From Thermodesulfovibrio sp. N1 (lineage in GTDB: Bacteria > Nitrospirota > Thermodesulfovibrionia > Thermodesulfovibrionales > Thermodesulfovibrionaceae): a stretch of DNA of 63,529 bases. Below the pieces are notes generated by a model. That model was not told the DNA's origin. It made no database searches and saw only the letters and a list, made by a program, of their open reading frames with translations. Below are positions 20,229 through 32,875 of the stretch, in pieces. The position numbers and the translations under genes are program-made. The stretch spans positions 1-63,529 of the forward strand of contig NZ_MAVV01000003.1 in the NCBI RefSeq assembly GCF_001707915.1. The letters are read 5' to 3'. Numbering within the stretch: position 1 is the stretch's first letter; each line of letters starts with the position of its first letter.

Positions 20229-20545
20229 TCAAGTGGTCAATAAATCTTCTCTAAAGGGTTGACCACTTTTTAATACCCCAAAGGCTTGCCTTATTAACTT
20301 ATATCCCACTGCAATTAATGCTAACTTCTTTGCTTTACCCCTACTTATCAACCTTTGATAAAATTCCCTACAATATTTATTCGCCCTTATAGCTGAAAGT
20401 CCACATAAATAAAGTATTTTCCTTACATATCCACTTCCCCTTTTCTTTATACCTCCTCGCCCCTTAACAGTACTACCACTTTCTGATGGAGAAGGACATA
20501 TACCTATAAAACTCCCTAATTTCTTCGCAGTGTTGTAGGACTTTT
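20229..20545 (-). pseudogene. IS110-family transposase, C-terminal fragment
   Basis: The frame carries the C-terminal (Transposase_20/IS116) region of IS110-type transposases: TAKKLGSFIGICPSPSESGS, then VKGRGGIKKRGSGYVRKILY and the end GVLKSGQPF. The N-terminal DEDD catalytic half is missing, so it is dead. Upstream of about 20545 the sequence changes to an unrelated signal-peptide-coding stretch, marking the junction. The first 15 or so codons of the long open frame (to 20579) are not transposase. Confidence 0.85.
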
Positions 20546-20625
20546 CCAGTAAGAAACAATTCATCAACACAGAAAGCAAATGAAGGTATTAAAAATAATA
20601 CAACTAAAATTAAAATCTCTCTCAC
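20540..20625 (-). pseudogene. 5' stub of a secreted-protein gene cut by the IS110 fragment
   Basis: A good ribosome site (AAAGGAGG) precedes GTG at 20625. The frame encodes a clean signal peptide, MREILILVVLFLIPSFAFC, followed by VDELFLTGKV, and then runs into IS110-derived sequence. Only about 28 codons remain. The identity of the lost protein cannot be told. Confidence 0.55.
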
Positions 20626-21287: not shown

Positions 21288-22178
21288 TTAGAATTTCAAA
21301 GTCAATAAGAAATGTTCCCCCTTTGCTCGATATTTGATAGTATAGCCAGATTTTTTTGCAAGGTAATCCACAATTTGTAATCCTACTCCTGATCCTTTGT
21401 CGGACTCGGCAATATCATTTCTTACAGCAAGAAATTTTTTAAAAATCTTTATATGAATTTTACTGTTTGAGTATTTAAAGGCATTATCAATGATTAAAAA
21501 TAGAATTATTTCAATGGTCTCTTCGTTTGCTTTTGTCAAAGAATCCTTTAAACTTAGTATAATTTTTTTTCTTGTTTCAAATTTTGAGATTATTTTCGTC
21601 AATATTTCTTTGAGATTTATTTCCTTGATATCTTTTCTAAAAGCAGGCAATTTTTTTACTGTTTCGATTGTTTTTGTTATTTCTTCATTCAGAATGTTAC
21701 AACTTGTATGAAGTCTTTCAATTATTCTGTTTTCAGGCTTTATTCTCAATATTTCTAAGTTTGTTTTCATGACTGAAAGAAAATTTCCGATTTTATGAGA
21801 CATTACAAAAATAAGAAGTTTTAAAAATTCTTCATATTCTATTTCTTTTTTGCTTATTGCAACTAATACTCTATAAAATAGATACATAAGTAGCAAAACA
21901 AGTAAAGACTCCCATAGAAGCACTGTTTTTGCATATTTTTTGAATCTATCATCAATGTAATTCTGGTCAATAATGAGCTCTTTGTCATATCTTTTTATAT
22001 GGAGCGGAAGTGGATAATTTTTATCTTTTTCAAGAATTTTCTGATACAATGCAAGGGTCTCCTCAAAATGTCTTTGTTGTTCTTCATTAAAAAAATAAAG
22101 AGTGACAAAATTAATAATAGAAAATATGAGTACTACTATTATTGCAAAAATTATTAACAGCTTTGTCTGAAAGCTCAA
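21288..22178 (-). CDS. Compact sensor histidine kinase, second copy
   Basis: A paralogue of the kinase at 9438. The 296 residues have two transmembrane helices (about 7-29 and 87-104), a periplasmic loop of about 55 residues that is longer and different from the first copy, an H-box SHKIGN (H128), the N-box-like IIDNAFKYS and the G-box GSGVGL (about 265). The DxGxG box and lid are again missing. The start is TTG, overlapping the regulator's TGA exactly as in the first copy. The kinase frame is intact while its regulator is broken, so it may act through the other regulator or be decaying. Confidence 0.82.
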   Translation of the reverse strand: MSFQTKLLIIFAIIVVLIFSIINFVTLYFFNEEQQRHFEETLALYQKILEKDKNYPLPLHIKRYDKELIIDQNYIDDRFKKYAKTVLLWESLLVLLLMYLFYRVLVAISKKEIEYEEFLKLLIFVMSHKIGNFLSVMKTNLEILRIKPENRIIERLHTSCNILNEEITKTIETVKKLPAFRKDIKEINLKEILTKIISKFETRKKIILSLKDSLTKANEETIEIILFLIIDNAFKYSNSKIHIKIFKKFLAVRNDIAESDKGSGVGLQIVDYLAKKSGYTIKYRAKGEHFLLTLKF

Positions 22179-22820
22179 CTTAATTTGTATCCTCTCCCTT
22201 TGTAGTTTTCAATTGCTCCTTCTGGAAGTATCTTTCTTAATTCTTTTATGTATGTCCTTATAACTTCATCTCCTACAGCTTTTCCTGCCCATACATAATT
22301 AAGTATTGTCTCATTATCAACAATCTCTCCTCTTCTTTATTATTAATAATGTATGCAAATCCCATGCAGTCTTTGAAAGTTTTAATTCTTCATTGCCTCG
22401 CTTGATTGTTTTCGCATCAATATTGATAATTATATCACCTATATTCATTATACTTGGCAATCTTTTTCTTTTGCTTAATGCTTAGATTCTTAGAACCAGC
22501 TCTTTAGGTTCAAAGGGTTTTATTAGATAGTCATCAGCTCCTCTGAGAAAACATTCTTCTTTATTAGAGAAATCCTTTTTTGCTGTCAAAATTAGGATTG
22601 GTGTTTCTATTCCTTTCTCTCTTATATAAGTTATTAAATCTTCGCCACGAGAAAATTTCAATATTAAATCAAGTACAATAACATCAAAGGAGTAAACATT
22701 TAGTACATTAGACAATTTCCTTTCGTCATGGAGCCAGAAGGTTTCTATTTTTTCAAGTTTGAGATATTCTACGAGGCTTTCACCAAGAGCTTTATCATCT
22801 TCTATTATGAGAATTTTCAT
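22175..22820 (-). pseudogene. Broken OmpR-family response regulator, second copy
   Basis: The receiver domain (MKILIIEDDKALGES...YLIKPFEPKELVLRI) is intact for 112 residues, then a TAA (22482-22484) replaces the AAA lysine codon found at the same place in the first copy (LVLRIKAL). Read-through continues as NIGDIIINIDAKTI, and a one-base insertion near 22331-22350 shifts the frame before GEIVDNETILNYVW and the end NYKGRGYKLS. Total length is 646 bases versus 645 for the intact regulator, which agrees with one insertion. The DNA-binding domain cannot be made. Confidence 0.88.
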
Positions 22821-22865
22821 TAATTAAATGTTACAGAAAAAAATTAGAGTTTTCAATATGCACTT

Positions 22866-23164
22866 AATTTTGGCGATATAAAAGTGCAATCTTTTACGAT
22901 TTAGTCATCCTGACCCTGAGCATATTCGAAGGGGAAGGATTTCATCTTTTTCACCTTTGAGGTGTCTAATGGGAGATTCTTCGAGGACATAAAGCTCCAT
23001 AATGATTATATAAAAAAGGAAGGTCATTCCGAAGGAGCGTAAGCGACTGAGGAATCTCCTCCTTTTTCACCAGATAGATTCTTTAATGAGAGATTCCTCG
23101 GGGTATATAAACCCTCGGAATGACTGCATAAACGAAAGATTGCTTTTATCTCTATCGGCAATTT
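22866..23164. mobile_element. MITE/REP-like element with inverted ends
   Basis: The unit starts with TTGGCGATA (22870-22878) and ends with TATCGGCAA (23153-23161), inverted repeats with one mismatch and the same termini as the element at 18988-19201. Inside are GTCATCCTGACCCTGAGCAT (about 22904-22923), GAGATTCTTCGAGG and GAGATTCCTCGGGG...CCCTCGGAATGAC modules. It fills the gap between the broken regulator and rarA and ends 12 bases beyond the rarA stop. No gene is present. Confidence 0.6.
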
Positions 23165-23175
23165 CAGGTTCAAAC

Positions 23176-24420
23176 TTAGGGATTGTAATATTTTTTCCTT
23201 TTGGGAAGGTAATCTTGCTTAACATATCTTCCATAATCATGGGGATATTTATATCCTTTACCGTGTCCGAGTTTTTTAGCTCCTTGATAATGGGCATCTT
23301 TTAAATGTTCGGGTACAGGTAAGGTAGGCTCTTTTTGAATATCCTGCATAGCCTCTTCAATTGCCCTATAGCAGGCATTGCTTTTTGGAGCCTTTGCTAC
23401 ATATATTGCTGCTTGTGCAAGTATTATTCTTGCTTCCGGCATTCCTATTATTTCAACTGCCTGTGCTGCTTGAGTTGCAATAATCAGTGCCATAGGGTCT
23501 GCGTTTCCTACATCTTCACTGGCTGCGATAATAATCCGACGAGCAATAAAACGAGGGTCTTCTCCAGCATAAATCATCTTTGCAAGCCAATAGACTGTTG
23601 CATCGGGATCACTTCCTCTCATGCTTTTTATAAAAGCAGAAATTGTATTATAATGCTGATCTCCTGCTTTGTCATAGACAATATGTTTTTTTTGAATACT
23701 TTCTTCTGCTGTTTTAATGTCAATATTAATAAAACCCCTTTCATCAGGCTTTGTTGTTAAAACAGCAATTTCTAAAGCCGAAAGAGCTTTTCTTGCATCT
23801 CCATCAGAGAATTTCGCAATATGATATAAGGCTTCATCGGTAATCTTAATATTTAAATGCCCAAGACCTCTTTCTTTGTCTAAAAGAGCCCTATTAAGAA
23901 TTTTTATGATTTCTTCTTCTGAGAGGGGTTTGAGTTCAAAAACATGACTTCTTGAAAGTAAAGCAGAATTTATATAAAAGAATGGATTTTCTATTGTAGC
24001 ACCAATAAGAATTATACTTCCCTCTTCAATGTCAGGAAGTAAAGCATCCTGTGAAACCCTATTGAGTCTATGAATTTCATCAATAAAGAGTATTGTTTTT
24101 TCTCCCTTGCTTTTTCTATTTCTTGCAATGGTAAGTTGTCTTCTTATTTCATCAATATTTAATGTAGTGGCGTTTAACCAATGAAAATGAGCCTTTGTTT
24201 TTGAAGCAATAATTCTTGCTAAAGCTGTTTTCCCAACCCCAGGAGGACCATACAATATAAGGGATGTAATCCTGTCAGAGTCAATTGATCTTTTTAAAAG
24301 TTTTCCTTCAGAAAGTATATGTTCCTGTCCCACATATTCATTTAAATCCTTTGGTGCCATTCTGTAAGCAAGGGGTTCTTCTTTCGGAGGCTCTATTACT
24401 TCATTAAAGAGATTACTCAT
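23176..24420 (-). CDS. rarA: Replication-associated AAA+ ATPase RarA (MgsA)
   Basis: RarA acts at stalled or gapped replication forks and is related to the clamp loader. The 414 residues have the Walker A motif GPPGVGKT (58-65), Walker B DEIH (114-117), sensor 1 GATIENP (about 142-148) and the C-terminal tetramerisation domain with DPDATVYWLAKM and GEDPRFIARR. The N-terminus also shows RMAPKDLNEYVGQEHI, typical of the family. It overlaps the HD-GYP gene upstream by four bases. The 3' end abuts a REP-like element. Confidence 0.95.
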   Translation of the reverse strand: MSNLFNEVIEPPKEEPLAYRMAPKDLNEYVGQEHILSEGKLLKRSIDSDRITSLILYGPPGVGKTALARIIASKTKAHFHWLNATTLNIDEIRRQLTIARNRKSKGEKTILFIDEIHRLNRVSQDALLPDIEEGSIILIGATIENPFFYINSALLSRSHVFELKPLSEEEIIKILNRALLDKERGLGHLNIKITDEALYHIAKFSDGDARKALSALEIAVLTTKPDERGFINIDIKTAEESIQKKHIVYDKAGDQHYNTISAFIKSMRGSDPDATVYWLAKMIYAGEDPRFIARRIIIAASEDVGNADPMALIIATQAAQAVEIIGMPEARIILAQAAIYVAKAPKSNACYRAIEEAMQDIQKEPTLPVPEHLKDAHYQGAKKLGHGKGYKYPHDYGRYVKQDYLPKRKKYYNP

Positions 24421-25679
24421 TTTATATTCCCAAGCATTTTTATAAATTCTATAAGAAGCGATTTATCATAATCCTTTTTTTCTCTTGTAAGAATTGATAA
24501 GGCAAAGAAAGGAGTTAAAGGAGCCTTGTAGGGTCTTCTTGTTGTAAGAGCATCATAGCAGTCAGCTATTGCTGTAATTCTTCCAAAAAGTTCGATTTCT
24601 TCTTCCTTTAAACCATAGGGGTAACCTCTTCCTGAGAGTTTTTCATGGTGTTGTAAAATTGCAGGATAGGATTCCTTAGGAACTTCTTTATTTTCTTTTA
24701 TTATTTCATAACCAGAAATTACATGTTGTTGAATTATTTTGTATTCTGTATCTGTTAATTTGCCCTGTTTGTTTAAAATTTCATGGGGTATTTTTGTTTT
24801 ACCAATATCGTGTAACATAGCACCAATACCAAGTTTTTGAATTTTTTCCTTTTCCAGTTTAATATGAATACCAAGACCTATTGATAAAACTCCTACATTT
24901 ATACTGTGTGTATAGGTATAGTAATCATATCCCTTTAGGGTTAATAGCCCATATATTGAATCTGGTTCCTCTATAACTTTTTTTATAATGTCATCTACCA
25001 GATTTTGCACTTCTTTAATTTTTTTGCCACTTCTTGGATCTTTTAACAGCTCTTTCATTACCACCTTGGAATTCTCTTTGAATATAATGTTTGCAATTAT
25101 TTTTTTATCTTCTTCTGAAATGTCTACATTAGCTAATTTGTCTTGAAGCCCTTTAATATATTCCTCATAAAGGGGAATATCCTTTTCTTCAATAACTAAT
25201 TCTCCTTCAACTGAAAATATATCTTCAGTAATCACTACAGGATTTTTATCAGAGGCATTTATTATTTTGGTAAATTCAAGATTTTTTAGATTATAGATGG
25301 GGAAATTTATTTCTGTCCCTGGAACAAGCAGTTTTTTCTCAATTTGATAATGCTTTTCTTTGAAAAAAGAATAATTGCTGAAGGCAACTTTAATATCCTG
25401 AACTTTTGGTTTGACGGGCTTTTTTGATAAGTAGTATTCCAAACTTTTTATTTCGGTCTTGTCGAGATAAACATAATCAAAGCCTTTTTCTTCTAATATT
25501 TCAAGAAAAATCCTATTTAGAATGTTACCTCTGTTAAAAACTTTCTTTACAACACCATTGTCTTTTACATAAACATTAAAGGGTAAGGCTATGCCTGTTT
25601 GAAGTCTTTTGGTTTCAACTTTTATTAAACCTTCAGTTGGGGTAATCTCTTTGATCTGGTATTTGAAGTTTACAGCCAT
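24417..25679 (-). CDS. HD-GYP domain protein (probable cyclic-di-GMP phosphodiesterase)
   Basis: The C-terminal half (about 245-400) is an HD-GYP domain with HDIGKTKIP (290-298) and HHEKLSGRGYP (344-354); the GYP signature is intact although threonine before it is arginine. The N-terminal 180 residues are a non-enzymatic region with beta-strand character (LQTGIALPFNVYV) that resembles sensor regions in other HD-GYP proteins. No transmembrane helix is seen, so it is cytosolic. It is the first gene of a two-gene unit with rarA, an unusual partner. Confidence 0.9.
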   Translation of the reverse strand: MAVNFKYQIKEITPTEGLIKVETKRLQTGIALPFNVYVKDNGVVKKVFNRGNILNRIFLEILEEKGFDYVYLDKTEIKSLEYYLSKKPVKPKVQDIKVAFSNYSFFKEKHYQIEKKLLVPGTEINFPIYNLKNLEFTKIINASDKNPVVITEDIFSVEGELVIEEKDIPLYEEYIKGLQDKLANVDISEEDKKIIANIIFKENSKVVMKELLKDPRSGKKIKEVQNLVDDIIKKVIEEPDSIYGLLTLKGYDYYTYTHSINVGVLSIGLGIHIKLEKEKIQKLGIGAMLHDIGKTKIPHEILNKQGKLTDTEYKIIQQHVISGYEIIKENKEVPKESYPAILQHHEKLSGRGYPYGLKEEEIELFGRITAIADCYDALTTRRPYKAPLTPFFALSILTREKKDYDKSLLIEFIKMLGNIK

Positions 25680-25722
25680 AATTAATTATCTCAAAAAAGC
25701 CTATTTAATGTAAAATATTAAG

Positions 25723-26381
25723 ATGGAACAAATTATATATCCCGATAATTTAAAAAATACAGGTTGTCAAGCCTTTTTTACAGAAAAAATTTTTCTATTG
25801 AGCTTTTTACTAATAAATATCAACTCTATCTACCCATTCAAAGGCACACAGACAATATTATAATTATCGACAAATACTCCAAACCTCAAGTAGCAGATTC
25901 TGTGCTCACTGACAATAAAGAACTTTTTATAGGGATAAAAGTAGCAGATTGCCTACCAGTGCTTCTTTATGATCCAGTAAAAAAAGTAATCGGAGCTATA
26001 CATGGAGGATGGAGAAGTACAGCAAAGGCAATATTGAAAAAAACAATCTTAAAAATGGTAGCAACTTATGGTTGTAAACCTTCAAATATTCTTATTGCTA
26101 TGGGACCAAGTATTAAAGGTTGTTGTTATGAAGTAGGTGATGAAGTAATAGAAGCTTTGAAATTAGAGACTCCTTCAAATGAATTTGTTTTAAGAGTAAA
26201 TGGTAAAAGTCATGTTGACCTTGCCACTGCTAATTTAATTCAGGCAATATCAATAGGTGTAAAAAGAGAAAATATATGGATTTGTTCATCCTGCACCCGA
26301 TGTAATACTGAGCGATTTGCTTCTTACAGATATGAAGGTAAAAAGGCTGGTAGACAATACGGAATAATCGGAATGTTATAA
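25723..26381 (+). CDS. pgeF: Purine nucleoside phosphorylase of the YfiH/laccase-domain family, frameshifted at A6
   Basis: The family (formerly multicopper polyphenol oxidase) hydrolyses or phosphorolyses purine nucleosides and helps peptidoglycan editing. The start at ATG 25723 gives MEQIIYPDNLKNTG and AFFTEK, then the frame is lost at A6 (25784-25789) and continues as NFSIELF in the -1 frame. One added A gives a 219-residue protein of normal length. Zinc/active-site residues are present: ADCLPVLL, HGGWRSTAK (His), GPSIKGCCYEVG (Cys) and CSSCTRC. A TTG at 25764 could start only the second part. The promoter of tRNA-Pro overlaps its stop. Confidence 0.85.
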
Positions 26382-26382
26382 T
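26374..26382 (+). promoter_or_regulatory. Extended -10 promoter of tRNA-Pro
   Basis: TGTTATAAT is a perfect extended -10 (TGnTATAAT). The tRNA begins eight bases after it, at 26390. A weak -35 (TAGACA at 26351-26356) is too far away, as is usual for extended -10 promoters. The site overlaps the pgeF stop codon. Transcription from it could continue into the aroF leader, because no terminator separates the tRNA from that leader. Confidence 0.6.
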
Positions 26383-26389
26383 AAACAAA

Positions 26390-26463
26390 CGGGGTGTAGC
26401 GCAGCTTGGTAGCGCTCACGGTTCGGGACCGTGGTGTCGGAGGTTCAAATCCTCTCACCCCGA
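26390..26463 (+). tRNA. tRNA-Pro (anticodon CGG)
   Basis: Acceptor CGGGGTG pairs with CACCCCG, with discriminator A at 26463. The anticodon stem CACGG/CCGTG encloses the loop TTCGGGA, giving anticodon CGG at 26424-26426. The T-arm has GGTTCAAATCC. CCA is not encoded. It lies between pgeF and the aroF attenuator. Confidence 0.95.
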
Positions 26464-26485
26464 TAGAATTGATAAGGGAGAAGGT

Positions 26486-26536
26486 ATGAAAATTTCTGCT
26501 AAAAATTATTTCTGGTTTGGCTTTTACTTTAACTAA
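26486..26536 (+). CDS. Aromatic-rich leader peptide of the aroF attenuator
   Basis: A 16-residue frame, MKISAKNYFWFGFYFN, with a ribosome site (GGGAGAAGG at 26476-26484). Eight of the last nine-to-ten residues are aromatic: five Phe, two Tyr, one Trp. It is followed at once by the antiterminator and terminator arms. This is the classic layout of a ribosome-mediated attenuator that senses charged tRNA-Phe, tRNA-Tyr and perhaps tRNA-Trp. The downstream gene, DAHP synthase, makes the first step of their synthesis. Confidence 0.85.
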   Translation: MKISAKNYFWFGFYFN

Positions 26537-26537
26537 T

Positions 26538-26593
26538 CTGCCTCTGGCAGTTTAGTCTGTAAAAAAATACTTAAGCAGACAAGTCAGGGGCAG
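26538..26593 (+). promoter_or_regulatory. Antiterminator pairing of the aroF attenuator
   Basis: CTGCCTCTG (26538-26546), directly after the leader-peptide stop, can pair with CAGGGGCAG (26585-26593) with one G-U pair. That would occupy the 5' arm of the terminator. Alternatively CTGCC (26538-26542) pairs with GGCAG (26546-26550) as a small local hairpin, which frees the terminator. A ribosome stalled on the aromatic codons would favour the first form; a ribosome at the stop codon would cover the first arm. Confidence 0.7.
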
Positions 26594-26622
26594 ACAGTTA
26601 CCCCTGATTTGTCTGCTTTTTT
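26575..26622 (+). terminator. Rho-independent terminator (attenuator) before aroF
   Basis: GCAGACAAGTCAGGGG (26575-26590) pairs over all 16 positions with CCCCTGATTTGTCTGC (26601-26616), with one G-U pair, around a ten-base loop, and is followed by six T. It stands between the leader peptide and the aroF ribosome site, so it must be bypassed for aroF expression. Confidence 0.93.
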
Positions 26623-26658
26623 ATTTATTTAAAATACTTTAAAGGAGGAGGTTTAAAA

Positions 26659-27672
26659 ATGGTAATTGTAATGAAGCCAGAAGCAACAGAAGAGCAATTA
26701 AGGCAAGTTATCGCAAAAATTGAGGAACTCGGTTACAAACCCCATGTAATCTATGGTGCTACAAGAAATGTAATAGGAGCTGTTGGAGATGAAAGAGGAA
26801 AGTTTATTTTACAAAGCCTTGAAGTTTTAGATGGCGTTGAAGCTGTTATTCCTATTTTAAAACCCTACAAACTTGCCTCAAAGGAGGTAAAAAAGGAAAA
26901 AACTATTATTAATGTTGGCGATATCTCTATAGGTGGAAGCGACCTCATTATTATTGCAGGACCCTGTGCAGTGGAAAATCAAGAACAAATTGTAAAAACA
27001 GCAATGACTGTGAAATCATTAGGTGCTCACATTTTAAGAGGCGGTGCTTATAAGCCAAGAACCTCTCCTTATGCTTTCCAGGGACTTGGCGAGGAAGGTT
27101 TAAAATTACTCAAAAAAGCAAGTGAAATCTCTAAGATGCCTGTAGTAACAGAGGTAATAAATCCAGAACATGTTGATTTAGTCTGTGAATATGTTGATAT
27201 TCTTCAAATAGGAACAAGAAATGCTCAGAATTTCGAACTTCTTAAAAGAGTTGGTCAGGCTGACAAGCCTGTAATTCTTAAAAGAGGGATGTCAATGACT
27301 ATCAAGGAATGGCTTATGAGTGCTGAATATATCTTAAGTGAAGGAAATATGAATGTGATATTATGCGAAAGAGGAATAAGAACCTTTGAAACTTCCACAA
27401 GAAATACCCTTGACCTTTCAGCTATAGTGGTGCTTAAAGAAGAAACTCATTTGCCTGTTATAGTTGACCCATCCCATGCTACAGGATATGCAAAGTATGT
27501 TTTACCAATGGCTTTAGCTGCAGTGGCTGCAGGTGCTGATGGTTTAATGATAGAGGTTCATCCTAATCCTGAAAAAGCTTTTTCAGACGGTCCTCAGTCT
27601 CTTAACTTTGATGCCTTTGGTAAATTAACAGAAAAAATTAAGAAGCTGACAGAAATTATAAAAGAATGTTAA
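26659..27672 (+). CDS. aroF: 3-deoxy-D-arabino-heptulosonate 7-phosphate (DAHP) synthase, type I-beta with FL domain
   Basis: This enzyme condenses phosphoenolpyruvate with erythrose 4-phosphate, the first step of aromatic amino acid synthesis. The 337 residues comprise an N-terminal ferredoxin-like domain (about 1-70, [18 protein letters not shown]), known from the Thermotoga enzyme to confer Phe/Tyr feedback inhibition, and a TIM barrel with AGPCAVEN (100-107), [16 protein letters not shown] (127-142), KRGMS, and DPSHATG. AAAGGAGGAGG gives a strong ribosome site. An attenuator upstream adds transcriptional control by aromatic amino acids, so the step appears to be regulated at two levels. 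Confidence 0.97.
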
Positions 27673-27935
27673 CCATAGCGAATTTTCATTAAAATTATTA
27701 CGGAGATTAATATTAAAGAAACAAAATTTGCTAATATTACAGGGAATTCTTTGATAAGAATTCCATAAAAAAACCAAAGGAGAATTCCTATGCCTAAAAA
27801 AACAAACATGGCAAGAGAAACATCCTTGGCAGATTTGGTTTTATAGATTTTTATTGCCTGTGGAATAAGAGCTGAAGTTGTTATAATACCTGCTATTGTT
27901 CCGATTAAATCTGAAAAAATTGAAATATTTTCCAT
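27669..27935 (-). CDS. SemiSWEET-type transporter
   Basis: A three-helix membrane protein of the MtN3/SemiSWEET family, which dimerises to form a sugar-transport pore. The 88 residues contain the PQ motif in TTSALIPQAIKIYKTKSAKD and helices at about 5-25, 38-58 and 63-83. ATG 27935 is chosen because GGAG lies six bases upstream; the longer start at 27947 has no ribosome site. It overlaps the aroF end by four bases on the opposite strand. Substrate unknown. Confidence 0.85.
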   Translation of the reverse strand: MENISIFSDLIGTIAGIITTSALIPQAIKIYKTKSAKDVSLAMFVFLGIGILLWFFYGILIKEFPVILANFVSLILISVIILMKIRYG

Positions 27936-27986
27936 TGAAAACTCCATAGTTTATATTGTATTATTAAACAATAAATTTTTGAAACT

Positions 27987-28835
27987 ATGACAAAAATAGA
28001 AAAAATAAGAATAGAAATTCAAACACTAAAAAAGCTACCTACTCTATCGCATTCTGCAATGAAAATATTAAATTTAACAGAAAATGAATCAACCCATCTT
28101 GATGAACTTGTAAAAATTATAGAAAATGATCCGCCAATTTTGTCAAAAGTTCTTGGAGTAGCAAATATACTTTATTTAGGATATGGATATAAAATAACTA
28201 CGGTAAAGGACGCTCTTTTTAAAATTGGATTTAATACTTTAAGAAATATAGCCTTTGGAATTTCTATTTTCAGTCTTTTTAAAAGTTCAGGGCAAAAAGA
28301 AATAACTTATAGAAAACTTTTTAAACATTCAATCGCAACAGGAGTAATAAGCAAATTCATATCAGAAAATATACTTGATTATAATGATGAGACAGCCTTT
28401 ACTTGTGGAATGCTTCATGATATAGGTTTATTTGCCCTTCATTATTTAAATTATGAAGCCTATGTAAAAATAGAAAATCTTGTATTACAGGGGAAAACAA
28501 TTGTCGAAGCAGAAAATGAAGTTATTGATTTAGATCATTCAATAATAGGAAAGTGGCTTTCTGAATGGTGGGGTTTACCTGAGGAGATTGGAGAAGTAAT
28601 ACTTTATCATCATGAAAATCCAGCAACTTTAGATAATAAATATCGAAAAAATATAGCATTGGTGCATCTTTCCAATTTTATTTCTGAAAGAATAGGATTT
28701 GGAATATTTGACGGAGTTCAGGAATCTACTTTTTATGAATACGGAATATATAGCATATTTACTTTACCAGAAATCAATGAATTAATAAACTACATAAAAA
28801 ATGATTTACCCTTTGAGGAGATAAATATAATATGA
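27987..28835 (+). CDS. HDOD domain protein
   Basis: The 282-residue protein is nearly all HDOD domain (about 10-215), with LPTLSHSAMKILNL, the VANILYLGYG helix, GMLHDIGLFAL and YHHENP. HDOD proteins are HD-related signalling modules that usually lack hydrolase activity; here HD and HH residues are partly kept. It overlaps the following GGDEF gene by four bases (ATGA), so the two probably work together in one signalling pathway. Confidence 0.9.
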   Translation: MTKIEKIRIEIQTLKKLPTLSHSAMKILNLTENESTHLDELVKIIENDPPILSKVLGVANILYLGYGYKITTVKDALFKIGFNTLRNIAFGISIFSLFKSSGQKEITYRKLFKHSIATGVISKFISENILDYNDETAFTCGMLHDIGLFALHYLNYEAYVKIENLVLQGKTIVEAENEVIDLDHSIIGKWLSEWWGLPEEIGEVILYHHENPATLDNKYRKNIALVHLSNFISERIGFGIFDGVQESTFYEYGIYSIFTLPEINELINYIKNDLPFEEINII

Positions 28836-30082
28836 GAGATTTTTTAGAAAAATTGGGGAATCTTTTAGAAATTGAAAATTATAAGAAACTTCAAACAGAA
28901 GAATTAAAAAAAGCAATTTTGCAATCTATGCATAAGAAAGATAAAGTAAGCTATAAATTATTAGATATTTTTGAGGATATGTCTTCAAATTGTGAAATTA
29001 ATATTAGAATAATTTCACTTATAAACTTACTGATAAACAGAATTTATCAAGAAAAGGATAGAAATATAAAAAGCTTTATTTCTTTTGCCTTAGAAGAAAT
29101 TGCCCGATTATTACCAATTGAAAACATCTCTTTAATGGAAAAAGATTCTAAAAGGAATTATCTAATTTTAAAATTTGCATCAGGTAAGATAAAAATAAAA
29201 GATTTCAGAATTAAAAAATTTCCTATTGAAGATTCTTTATCAGGGCAGGCATTCAAAAGTGGAAAATATATTTATATCCCTGACACTGAGGTTGACCCCA
29301 GATTCAATAAAAAATTATCTAACCTGCCTATTAAATCATTACTATCTGTGCCATTAAAAGAAGGAGATAAAGTAATTGGTGTTATGAATTTTTCCCATGC
29401 TATAAAAAATGCCTTTAATGAAATGGTAATTCATATGCTTGTCAGTTTTACAAATCTATTTTCTTCCATATTGACCCTTTTCAAACTTTATAGGGAAAAC
29501 CTTCATTTTAATTCTCGGCTAAAAAAGGAAGTTAATAAGAAAACAATAGAAATTCAGCGGATGAATATAAAGCTATATAAAACCTCCATAACTGATCCCT
29601 TAACAGGACTTTATAATCGAAGATTTTTCTCCCAGAGATTAGAAGAGGAATTCAATAGATTTTTAAGATACGGAAGTAATTTCTGTCTTGTCATACTTGA
29701 TTTAGATAAATTGAAATATATAAATGACACCTATGGACACTTAGAGGGTGATAGAATATTAAAGATTTTTGCTAAAATATTGGCTAAAAGAACTCGTAAA
29801 GAAGATGTTGTTGCAAGAATAGGAGGAGATGAGTTTGCCTGTATTTTAGTGGGCTCTAATATTGAAGGAGCAAAAATATTTACTGAAAGAATTAAGGAGG
29901 ATTTAAATAAAAATTATAAAAAAGAAAAACTAACATTTTGTGCAGGTGTTGGATGTTTAAATAAAGGAGAGTATTTTAAATTTTATAAATCCTATAAGGA
30001 ATTTTTCAAAGAAGTAGATAAAACCCTCCTAAAAGCAAAAAAGATAAAGGATTCTGTAAAAATAATTGAAATTGATAAATAA
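28832..30082 (+). CDS. GAF-GGDEF diguanylate cyclase
   Basis: A probable cytosolic diguanylate cyclase making cyclic-di-GMP. Residues 1-70 are helical. A GAF domain spans about 72-215 (LPIENISLMEKD, SLSGQAFKSGKYIYI, SVPLKEGDKVIGVMNF). After a short coiled coil, the GGDEF domain (about 250-412) has DPLTGLYNRRFF, an intact GGDEF at 331-335, and the inhibitory I-site RKED (322-325) five residues before it. It is translationally coupled to the HDOD gene. Targets for the signal include the two HD-GYP proteins in this window. Confidence 0.93.
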   Translation: MRDFLEKLGNLLEIENYKKLQTEELKKAILQSMHKKDKVSYKLLDIFEDMSSNCEINIRIISLINLLINRIYQEKDRNIKSFISFALEEIARLLPIENISLMEKDSKRNYLILKFASGKIKIKDFRIKKFPIEDSLSGQAFKSGKYIYIPDTEVDPRFNKKLSNLPIKSLLSVPLKEGDKVIGVMNFSHAIKNAFNEMVIHMLVSFTNLFSSILTLFKLYRENLHFNSRLKKEVNKKTIEIQRMNIKLYKTSITDPLTGLYNRRFFSQRLEEEFNRFLRYGSNFCLVILDLDKLKYINDTYGHLEGDRILKIFAKILAKRTRKEDVVARIGGDEFACILVGSNIEGAKIFTERIKEDLNKNYKKEKLTFCAGVGCLNKGEYFKFYKSYKEFFKEVDKTLLKAKKIKDSVKIIEIDK

Positions 30083-30103
30083 TCTATGCTAAATTTTAAA
30101 CTT

Positions 30104-30120
30104 AGAGTCTTTGACTCTTT
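30104..30120 (+). terminator. Weak terminator-like hairpin after the GGDEF gene
   Basis: AGAGTC-TTT-GACTCT followed by TT. The stem is six pairs with no mismatch, but the T-tract is short. It lies just before the structured rpsB leader. Confidence 0.4.
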
Positions 30121-30129
30121 AAAACACAT

Positions 30130-30177
30130 GCCCTAAAAATTTCCCGATGGTCCTCTTTGAGGTTTAGGGAAAAGGGC
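30130..30177 (+). promoter_or_regulatory. Structured leader of rpsB (candidate S2 autoregulatory element)
   Basis: Three nested stems are compatible: GCCCT/AGGGC (30130-30134 with 30173-30177), TTTCCC/GGGAAA (30140-30145 with 30167-30172) and CCTC/GAGG (30152-30155 with 30159-30162). An AAAAT bulge and a GATGGT/TTTA internal loop separate them. It ends about 18 bases before the rpsB ribosome site. Many bacteria control rpsB by S2 binding to such leaders; that this is one is inferred. Confidence 0.5.
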
Positions 30178-30206
30178 AGAGGAAAAACCAATTAAGGAGG
30201 CTTTTT

Positions 30207-30992
30207 ATGGCAGTAGTTACAATGAAAGAACTTCTTGAAGCAGGTGCTCACTTTGGTCATCAAGTCAAACGCTGGAATCCCAAAATGAAAAAGTATATTT
30301 TTGCTGAAAGAAACGGGATTCACATAATTGACCTGCAAAAGACAGTTAAAGGAATTGAGGAAGCCTATGAATTTATTAAAAGTGTAGCATCTCAGGGAAA
30401 TGGAATTCTTTTTGTTGGAACAAAAAAACAAGCTCAAGAAGCAATAGCTGAGGAGGCAAAAAGAGCAGGAGTATATTATATTAACAACCGTTGGCTTGGA
30501 GGAATGTTAACTAATTTTTCCACAGTTAGAAAAAGTGTTGAAAAATGGCAGAGAATTGAACAGATGAAAGAAGACGGAACTTTATATCTTCACACCAAAA
30601 AAGAAATTGCCAAACTTGAAAAAGAAAGACAGAAACTTGAAGTCAATCTAATAGGAATAAAAGATATGATGGAACTGCCTAAGGCTATATTTATTGTTGA
30701 TATAAAGAAAGAAAGGATCGCTGTTGCAGAGGCAATAAAACTTGGAATTCCCATAGTAGCAATTGTTGATACAAACTGTGATCCTGACCTTGTTGATTAT
30801 GTAATACCTGGTAATGATGATGCTATAAGAGCAATTAAGCTTATAACTTCTAAGATGGCAGATGCTGTTTTAGAGGGCAAAGAAATTCTGATTAAAAAAC
30901 TTGAGGAAGAGGCTGAAAAAGCAGCAATAAAAGAAAAAATACTCCAGGAAGAGGAGTATCAGAAATCAATGGATGAATACATAGAACAGTAA
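30207..30992 (+). CDS. rpsB: 30S ribosomal protein S2
   Basis: S2 binds late to the 30S subunit at the head-body junction. The 261-residue protein shows [20 protein letters not shown] at the start, the [12 protein letters not shown] signature (about 92-103) and [25 protein letters not shown] precedes the ATG. It heads the conserved rpsB-tsf-pyrH-frr operon. The C-terminus has an acidic coiled extension typical of thermophile S2. Confidence 0.98.
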
Positions 30993-31007
30993 AAAGGAGG
31001 AAATCAT

Positions 31008-32875
<1,868 letters not shown>

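Follow-up and report, generated by a model that had tools for sequence, protein, structure and literature searches.

A very probable ribosome-mediated transcription attenuator ahead of the DAHP synthase gene aroF in Thermodesulfovibrio and its relatives in the order Thermodesulfovibrionales

How is aroF, the gene that stands at the entry of the shikimate pathway, controlled in Thermodesulfovibrio sp. N1? The question is raised by a 63,529-nt stretch of DNA (contig NZ_MAVV01000003.1, positions 1 to 63,529 of the forward strand; hereafter the window, 32.5% GC, from a 1.9-Mb genome), in which a sequence-only reading had placed a complete ribosome-stalling attenuator directly before this gene. The features of the locus are the following.

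25764-26381, + strand: pgeF, ending 8 nt before tRNA-Pro
26374-26382, + strand: putative extended -10 promoter element TGTTATAAT, overlapping the pgeF stop codon; predicted start at about 26388-26390, the 5' end of the tRNA
26390-26463, + strand: tRNA-Pro (anticodon CGG), no encoded CCA (ARAGORN; Rfam tRNA)
26474-26480, + strand: Shine-Dalgarno sequence AAGGGAG of the leader peptide, found in the sequence
26486-26536, + strand: leader peptide ORF MKISAKNYFWFGFYFN with its stop codon, 16 codons; ATG 22 nt past tRNA-Pro
26532-26556, + strand: protector (anti-antiterminator) hairpin ACUAA.CUGCC/GGCAG.UUUAGU, -11.4 kcal/mol, z -3.9
26537-26596, + strand: antiterminator, helices 26537-26548/26583-26594 and 26555-26560/26575-26580, -25.6 kcal/mol in all, z -5.7
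26573-26622, + strand: intrinsic terminator, 18-bp stem 26573-26590/26601-26618 and a run of six T at 26617-26622, -30.9 kcal/mol, z -8.2
26659-27672, + strand: aroF-1, type I-beta DAHP synthase (Pfam PF00793) with an N-terminal ferredoxin-like regulatory domain (Pfam PF18152); NCBIfam PRK08673

Feedback inhibition of the T. maritima DAHP synthase via its ferredoxin-like domain is established, and this enzyme (1rzm/3pg9) is the closest solved structure to AroF. A convergent gene of the PQ-loop/SWEET type follows aroF downstream. A second DAHP synthase gene (aroF-2, near pheA, hisC and tyrA) is split at contig ends in the assembly, as is trpE; the split sites of these two genes lie at G000:C25 end/C20 end and at G000:C1 end/C46 start. 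Elsewhere in the window, an ORF at 20229-20579 on the minus strand looks by eye like the C-terminal part of an IS110-type transposase and is probably a fragment.

Every part that the sequence-only reading had listed, namely the ribosome site, the 16-residue frame, the first antiterminator helix and a terminator with six T, lies in its place before aroF. The terminator stem measures 18 bp instead of the 16 bp given there, and the second antiterminator helix and the protector hairpin had not been listed; the tRNA-Pro gene 22 nt before the leader ATG had been missed too. The fold of the 221-nt leader region is 4.6 standard deviations better than that of shuffles. Positions 26575-26580 and 26583-26590 are used by both large structures, and because both 3' strands of the antiterminator sit in the 5' half or the loop of the terminator, antiterminator and terminator are mutually exclusive. 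The peptide requires more caution: the 63.5-kb window holds five short ORFs in which a run of 9 residues includes 7 or more aromatics, and the chance of such an ORF is 0.0003-0.0008 per random 159-nt stretch. Taken alone, the aromatic peptide is weak evidence in DNA of 32.5% GC; taken jointly, the peptide, the structures and their conservation are far beyond chance.

The attenuator element is present in 13 of 16 Thermodesulfovibrio genomes, directly before the orthologous aroF, and model searches placed a single copy per genome, always ahead of this gene. A related leader precedes the orthologous aroF in 13 genomes of families f5, f10 and f13 of the Thermodesulfovibrionales. All four elements (peptide, protector, antiterminator, terminator) persist in the 13 genus genomes and can be recognised in 13 further genomes of the order. 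The refutation check set by the sequence-only reading, loss of the peptide or of a pairing in close relatives, has therefore turned out to favour that reading. No convincing further copy was found in the genome of the window, where the weak model matches (E 0.12-0.54) are at chance level; the DNA upstream of trpE showed no similar leader by eye, and a covariance-model search covering trpE and pheA likewise gave no convincing match.

Within the genus, a purine-rich Shine-Dalgarno sequence stands before the leader ATG in all 13 genomes. The N-terminal codons vary freely, and the alignment shows an aromatic core kept in 13 of 13, with 7-8 aromatics per 9 residues in most leaders and codons that change synonymously or from aromatic to aromatic. 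Counted back from the stop codon, position -2 is Phe (13/13), -3 is Tyr in 12 leaders and Phe in one, -4 is Phe (13/13), -5 is Gly or Ser, -6 is Phe or Tyr (13/13), -7 is Trp in ten, Tyr in two and Cys in one, and -8 is Phe in 10 of 13. Which residues are sensed? It is possible, with the odds somewhat against it, that the attenuator is real and senses Phe only, the Tyr and Trp codons being passengers. Phe is the sole residue common to all 26 leader cores of the genus and the other families; Trp is missing from three of the 13 genus leaders (G122, G123, G125), and some cores of other families lack Tyr. The C. glutamicum aroR-aroF attenuator (Neshat et al., 2014) is, as reviewed in PMC11802643, induced by Phe and not by Tyr limitation despite its Phe-Tyr-Phe leader. 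Against a Phe-only sensor, the near-universal Tyr of the genus at -3 and the presence of Trp in 23 of the 26 leaders, including a WWW in G010, are more than would be expected of passengers. These patterns suggest that Phe is the dominant sensed signal, and the earlier wording that Phe, Tyr and perhaps Trp would be sensed at once is a fair one, in which Phe may be taken as universal, Tyr as nearly so in the genus and Trp as absent from three leaders.

The pairings of the leader are conserved as well. Over the 13 genus genomes, both sides of the terminator stem have changed in 6 pairs and 11 cells, compared with 2.5 and 4.1 in shuffles, values that were reached by 1 (pairs) and 0 (cells) of 500 shuffles. 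For the antiterminator 92.6% and for the protector 92.3% of the cells are paired over the same genomes, while slid controls gave at most 45% for either. Variation of protector and antiterminator within the genus is too small for strong covariation; the antiterminator hardly covaries there (1 cell) because its 5' arm is nearly invariant. In the other families the antiterminator does covary, with 8 cells of double changes that none of 500 shuffles reached, and so does the terminator.

The effect of ribosome position was modelled by constrained folding, in which the RNA extended as far as the last nucleotide of region 3 and the ribosome footprint was kept unpaired. A ribosome standing on the aromatic codons leaves 8.4-15.9 expected antiterminator pairs and one at the stop codon 0.2-3.3, in all 13 genus genomes and with the same result at 37, 55 and 65 C. 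Nine leaders of other families behaved alike: a ribosome on the aromatic cluster lets the antiterminator form, and after its passage the antiterminator is lost. Folding with no ribosome gave a mixed picture. Five leaders of other families (G105, G109, G098, G097 and G101) form less than 1 antiterminator pair, and in the f10 leaders the protector wins; in untranslated genus RNA at equilibrium, completion of region 3 tips the balance towards the antiterminator and away from the weak protector. The default state of the genus leader in the absence of a ribosome is therefore uncertain in these models.

On the strength of conservation, covariation and constrained folding in 13 of 13 genomes, the ribosome-stalling attenuator that had been suggested is well supported, and we consider it very likely that aroF is controlled by ribosome-mediated transcription attenuation. 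In the proposed mechanism, RNA polymerase would start just upstream of tRNA-Pro and transcribe first the tRNA, then the leader. With charged tRNA-Phe (and tRNA-Tyr and, less so, tRNA-Trp) in good supply, the ribosome would reach the UAA codon and its footprint would cover the 5' arm of the antiterminator; the terminator would then form, and only tRNA-Pro with a short trailer would be made. When aromatic aminoacyl-tRNA is short, the ribosome would wait on the Y-F-W-F-G-F-Y-F codons and disturb the protector, leaving the antiterminator arm free; region 3 would be taken up by the antiterminator, no terminator would form and aroF would be transcribed. For this scheme we infer that transcription terminates or reads through as described, that it responds to amino acids, that the tRNA is transcribed together with the leader and aroF, and that the tRNA is processed at its 3' end.

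The part played by the tRNA gene can be approached through its surroundings. Of 15 genus genomes, most have a TATAAT element, often in the form TGTTATAAT, that begins 13-16 nt before the first nucleotide of the tRNA; in G120 the distance is 27 nt, and G113 has no such element. Genomes with a shifted pgeF stop codon (G115, G119, G120) retain it. A simple sigma-70 scan found no site at tRNA-Pro, a good -35 being lacking; the TATAAT element is a putative promoter. The leader follows tRNA-Pro within about 25 nt in 11 of the 13 genus copies, too little room for a separate promoter and terminator. In one of the genomes (G124), about 12.8 kb separate tRNA-Pro from the leader, and since the attenuator is kept there, the tRNA is not essential to it. 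In another (G114), the final 23 nt of the tRNA are repeated directly before the leader, at the end of a masked insertion. As a separate observation, the 3' end of tRNA-Pro resembles an integration site (G124: L093/L156; G114: L164). The tRNA-Pro(CGG) gene has no encoded CCA in the window (26464) and in most genus genomes; a CCA is encoded in the three outgroup genomes examined (L165-L167) and in G124, where the tRNA stands apart from the leader. With a tRNA that lacks an encoded CCA, 3' maturation would therefore yield a leader mRNA whose 5' end is short and which carries the Shine-Dalgarno sequence. Judged from this layout, a single promoter probably serves tRNA-Pro, leader and aroF as one transcription unit, in which the attenuator would double as the terminator of tRNA-Pro. 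It seems rather likely to us that tRNA-Pro is made in every round with the attenuator as its terminator, that tRNA 3' processing gives the leader mRNA its 5' end, so that aroF alone is made conditionally, and that the RNA family is leaderless elsewhere in the order and carries a Shine-Dalgarno sequence behind the tRNA.

The leader and aroF-1 are both missing from two genomes of the genus, G113 (99% complete) and G117; tRNA-Pro is kept in them and directly meets the downstream PQ-loop gene. Trees of the second DAHP synthase place G113 beside G112 and G117 beside G125, and both G112 and G125 have the unit; support for G117/G125 is moderate, and the G117 genome is only 68% complete, its locus itself being readable. 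Because G113 and G117 stand on different branches, leader and aroF-1 have been lost together twice independently. These losses bear on a plainer explanation, by which the hairpin would be a mere terminator of tRNA-Pro, aroF would have its own promoter downstream and the aromatic ORF would be due to chance in AT-rich DNA. The hairpin does lie directly behind the tRNA gene, short aromatic ORFs are not rare in the window, and inspection by eye shows a weak TTGTCT-15-TAAAAT at the 3' end of the hairpin. Against it speak G113 and G117, where the tRNA stays and the hairpin is gone along with aroF, the conserved antiterminator and protector, and the aromatic codons, which are kept in all 13 genomes and also in other families where no tRNA stands upstream. 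The promoter scan found no promoter between terminator and aroF, and the gap between them is not conserved and goes down to 26 nt. We regard the plain tRNA terminator as very unlikely and retain the attenuator.

How far does the attenuator extend beyond the genus? Two covariance models were built, R1 from the genus sequences and R2 from the other families only, with no genus sequence. R1 found G020 (E 4.8e-5) and G015 (E 0.006). In the opposite direction, R2 found the leader of the window at 26502-26614 with E = 2.9e-8, plus most other copies of the genus, and its strong matches all lie before aroF, including one added genome (G009) that was checked. Across 396 sampled genomes of the phylum, R2 had no match outside the order, under strict filters that may pass over distant forms, and an automated leader search at aroF loci of other phyla (L004-L080) gave scattered aromatic ORFs only and no full layout. 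Leaders of the other families, for example MHNICFSYFSFYFWYGFYFRPSA (G105) and MQNRFFFFGFGFWYGFYFRPSALDRG (G021), have no ribosome site, and in most of them a TTGAC(A) -35 is followed by a -10 ending about 6 nt before the ATG; they are probably leaderless, i.e. translated from the 5' end. The f5, f10 and f13 leaders (L098-L108, L215) have a second GC-rich, terminator-like hairpin between the attenuator terminator and aroF, some 30-90 nt before the gene. A pairing (4:5) between the 5' arm of this hairpin and the 3' arm of the first terminator would be possible; it showed no excess over shuffles or slid controls, in a region where the alignment is poor. A different group of leader peptides, e.g. 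MNNPYRLYWRNYYRFTNFIGMKCEGAHTHK, was observed ahead of more distant aroF genes in the same order (L109, L110, L111, L113, L117 and L124); these are probably leaderless too, are rich in Tyr, Arg and Phe, and each has a terminator.

An RNA that senses an aromatic amino acid or an uncharged tRNA directly, as a riboswitch or T-box and with no leader peptide, would also fit a layout of terminator and antiterminator, and aromatic genes of other bacteria are under T-boxes (as reviewed in PMC1262725). Yet Rfam, with T-box, Phe_leader and Trp_leader included, gave no match at E up to 1 in positions 22000-32000 of the window except the tRNA; no large conserved aptamer is present upstream, where the gap between tRNA and ORF is only about 22 nt, and the conserved part is the coding frame together with its spacing to the arms. 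Direct sensing of this kind is highly improbable, and the peptide-based attenuator is kept as the working explanation. In the relatives, Rfam gave nothing above threshold; two matches below it, MIR8008 (L090) and RcsR1 (L099), were regarded as spurious. If the attenuator reading is correct, a family of regulatory RNAs absent from Rfam would run through the Thermodesulfovibrionales and control entry into the shikimate pathway, as one attenuator in two forms, leaderless with its own promoter or placed behind a tRNA gene. The second form suggests a simple way for a regulated biosynthetic gene to share the promoter of a tRNA. The covariance models and the natural losses make the attenuator directly testable.

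The sequence-only reading knew of no such leader for aroF in this lineage. This holds for the lineage, for which our literature search (most subscription papers lay outside it) returned no paper joining Thermodesulfovibrio with leader-peptide attenuation; elsewhere, attenuators of aroF are known. The nearest in logic is aroR-aroF of C. glutamicum, which, as described in PMC11802643 and PMC4046766, also has a leader with Phe and Tyr codons before a DAHP synthase gene and works by ribosome-mediated attenuation. It belongs to another phylum, its leader has only Phe-Tyr-Phe as opposed to 7-8 aromatics in 9 residues in Thermodesulfovibrio, and those accounts describe no upstream tRNA gene where Thermodesulfovibrio has tRNA-Pro; the two were compared by description. 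The uORFC-13-1 motif, with attenuation proposed from comparative data, is likewise a uORF with one or more Phe codons and a terminator, exclusively upstream of aroF (PMC8632094). According to that paper it is confined to Acholeplasma and unassigned environmental sequences, and it differs in having its own promoter and RBS and a U run that encodes one or more Phe. E. coli pheL-pheA and trpL-trpEDCBA share the logic of control codons, protector, antiterminator and terminator; they differ in their target genes, have no Rfam match to the window and contrast with the weak protector found here. As predicted for the relatives in other families, the attenuator RNA rnTrpL of S. meliloti starts at the leader AUG (PMC7298713), but it is a Trp leader, and the copy in the window is not leaderless, having a Shine-Dalgarno sequence and standing behind a tRNA. 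The C. glutamicum ilvB leader has also been reported to lack a ribosome binding site (a title cited in PMC4046766). The principle of attenuation is thus textbook knowledge, and what appears new, within the literature searched, is an order-wide RNA family with an unusual tRNA-linked form in Thermodesulfovibrio.
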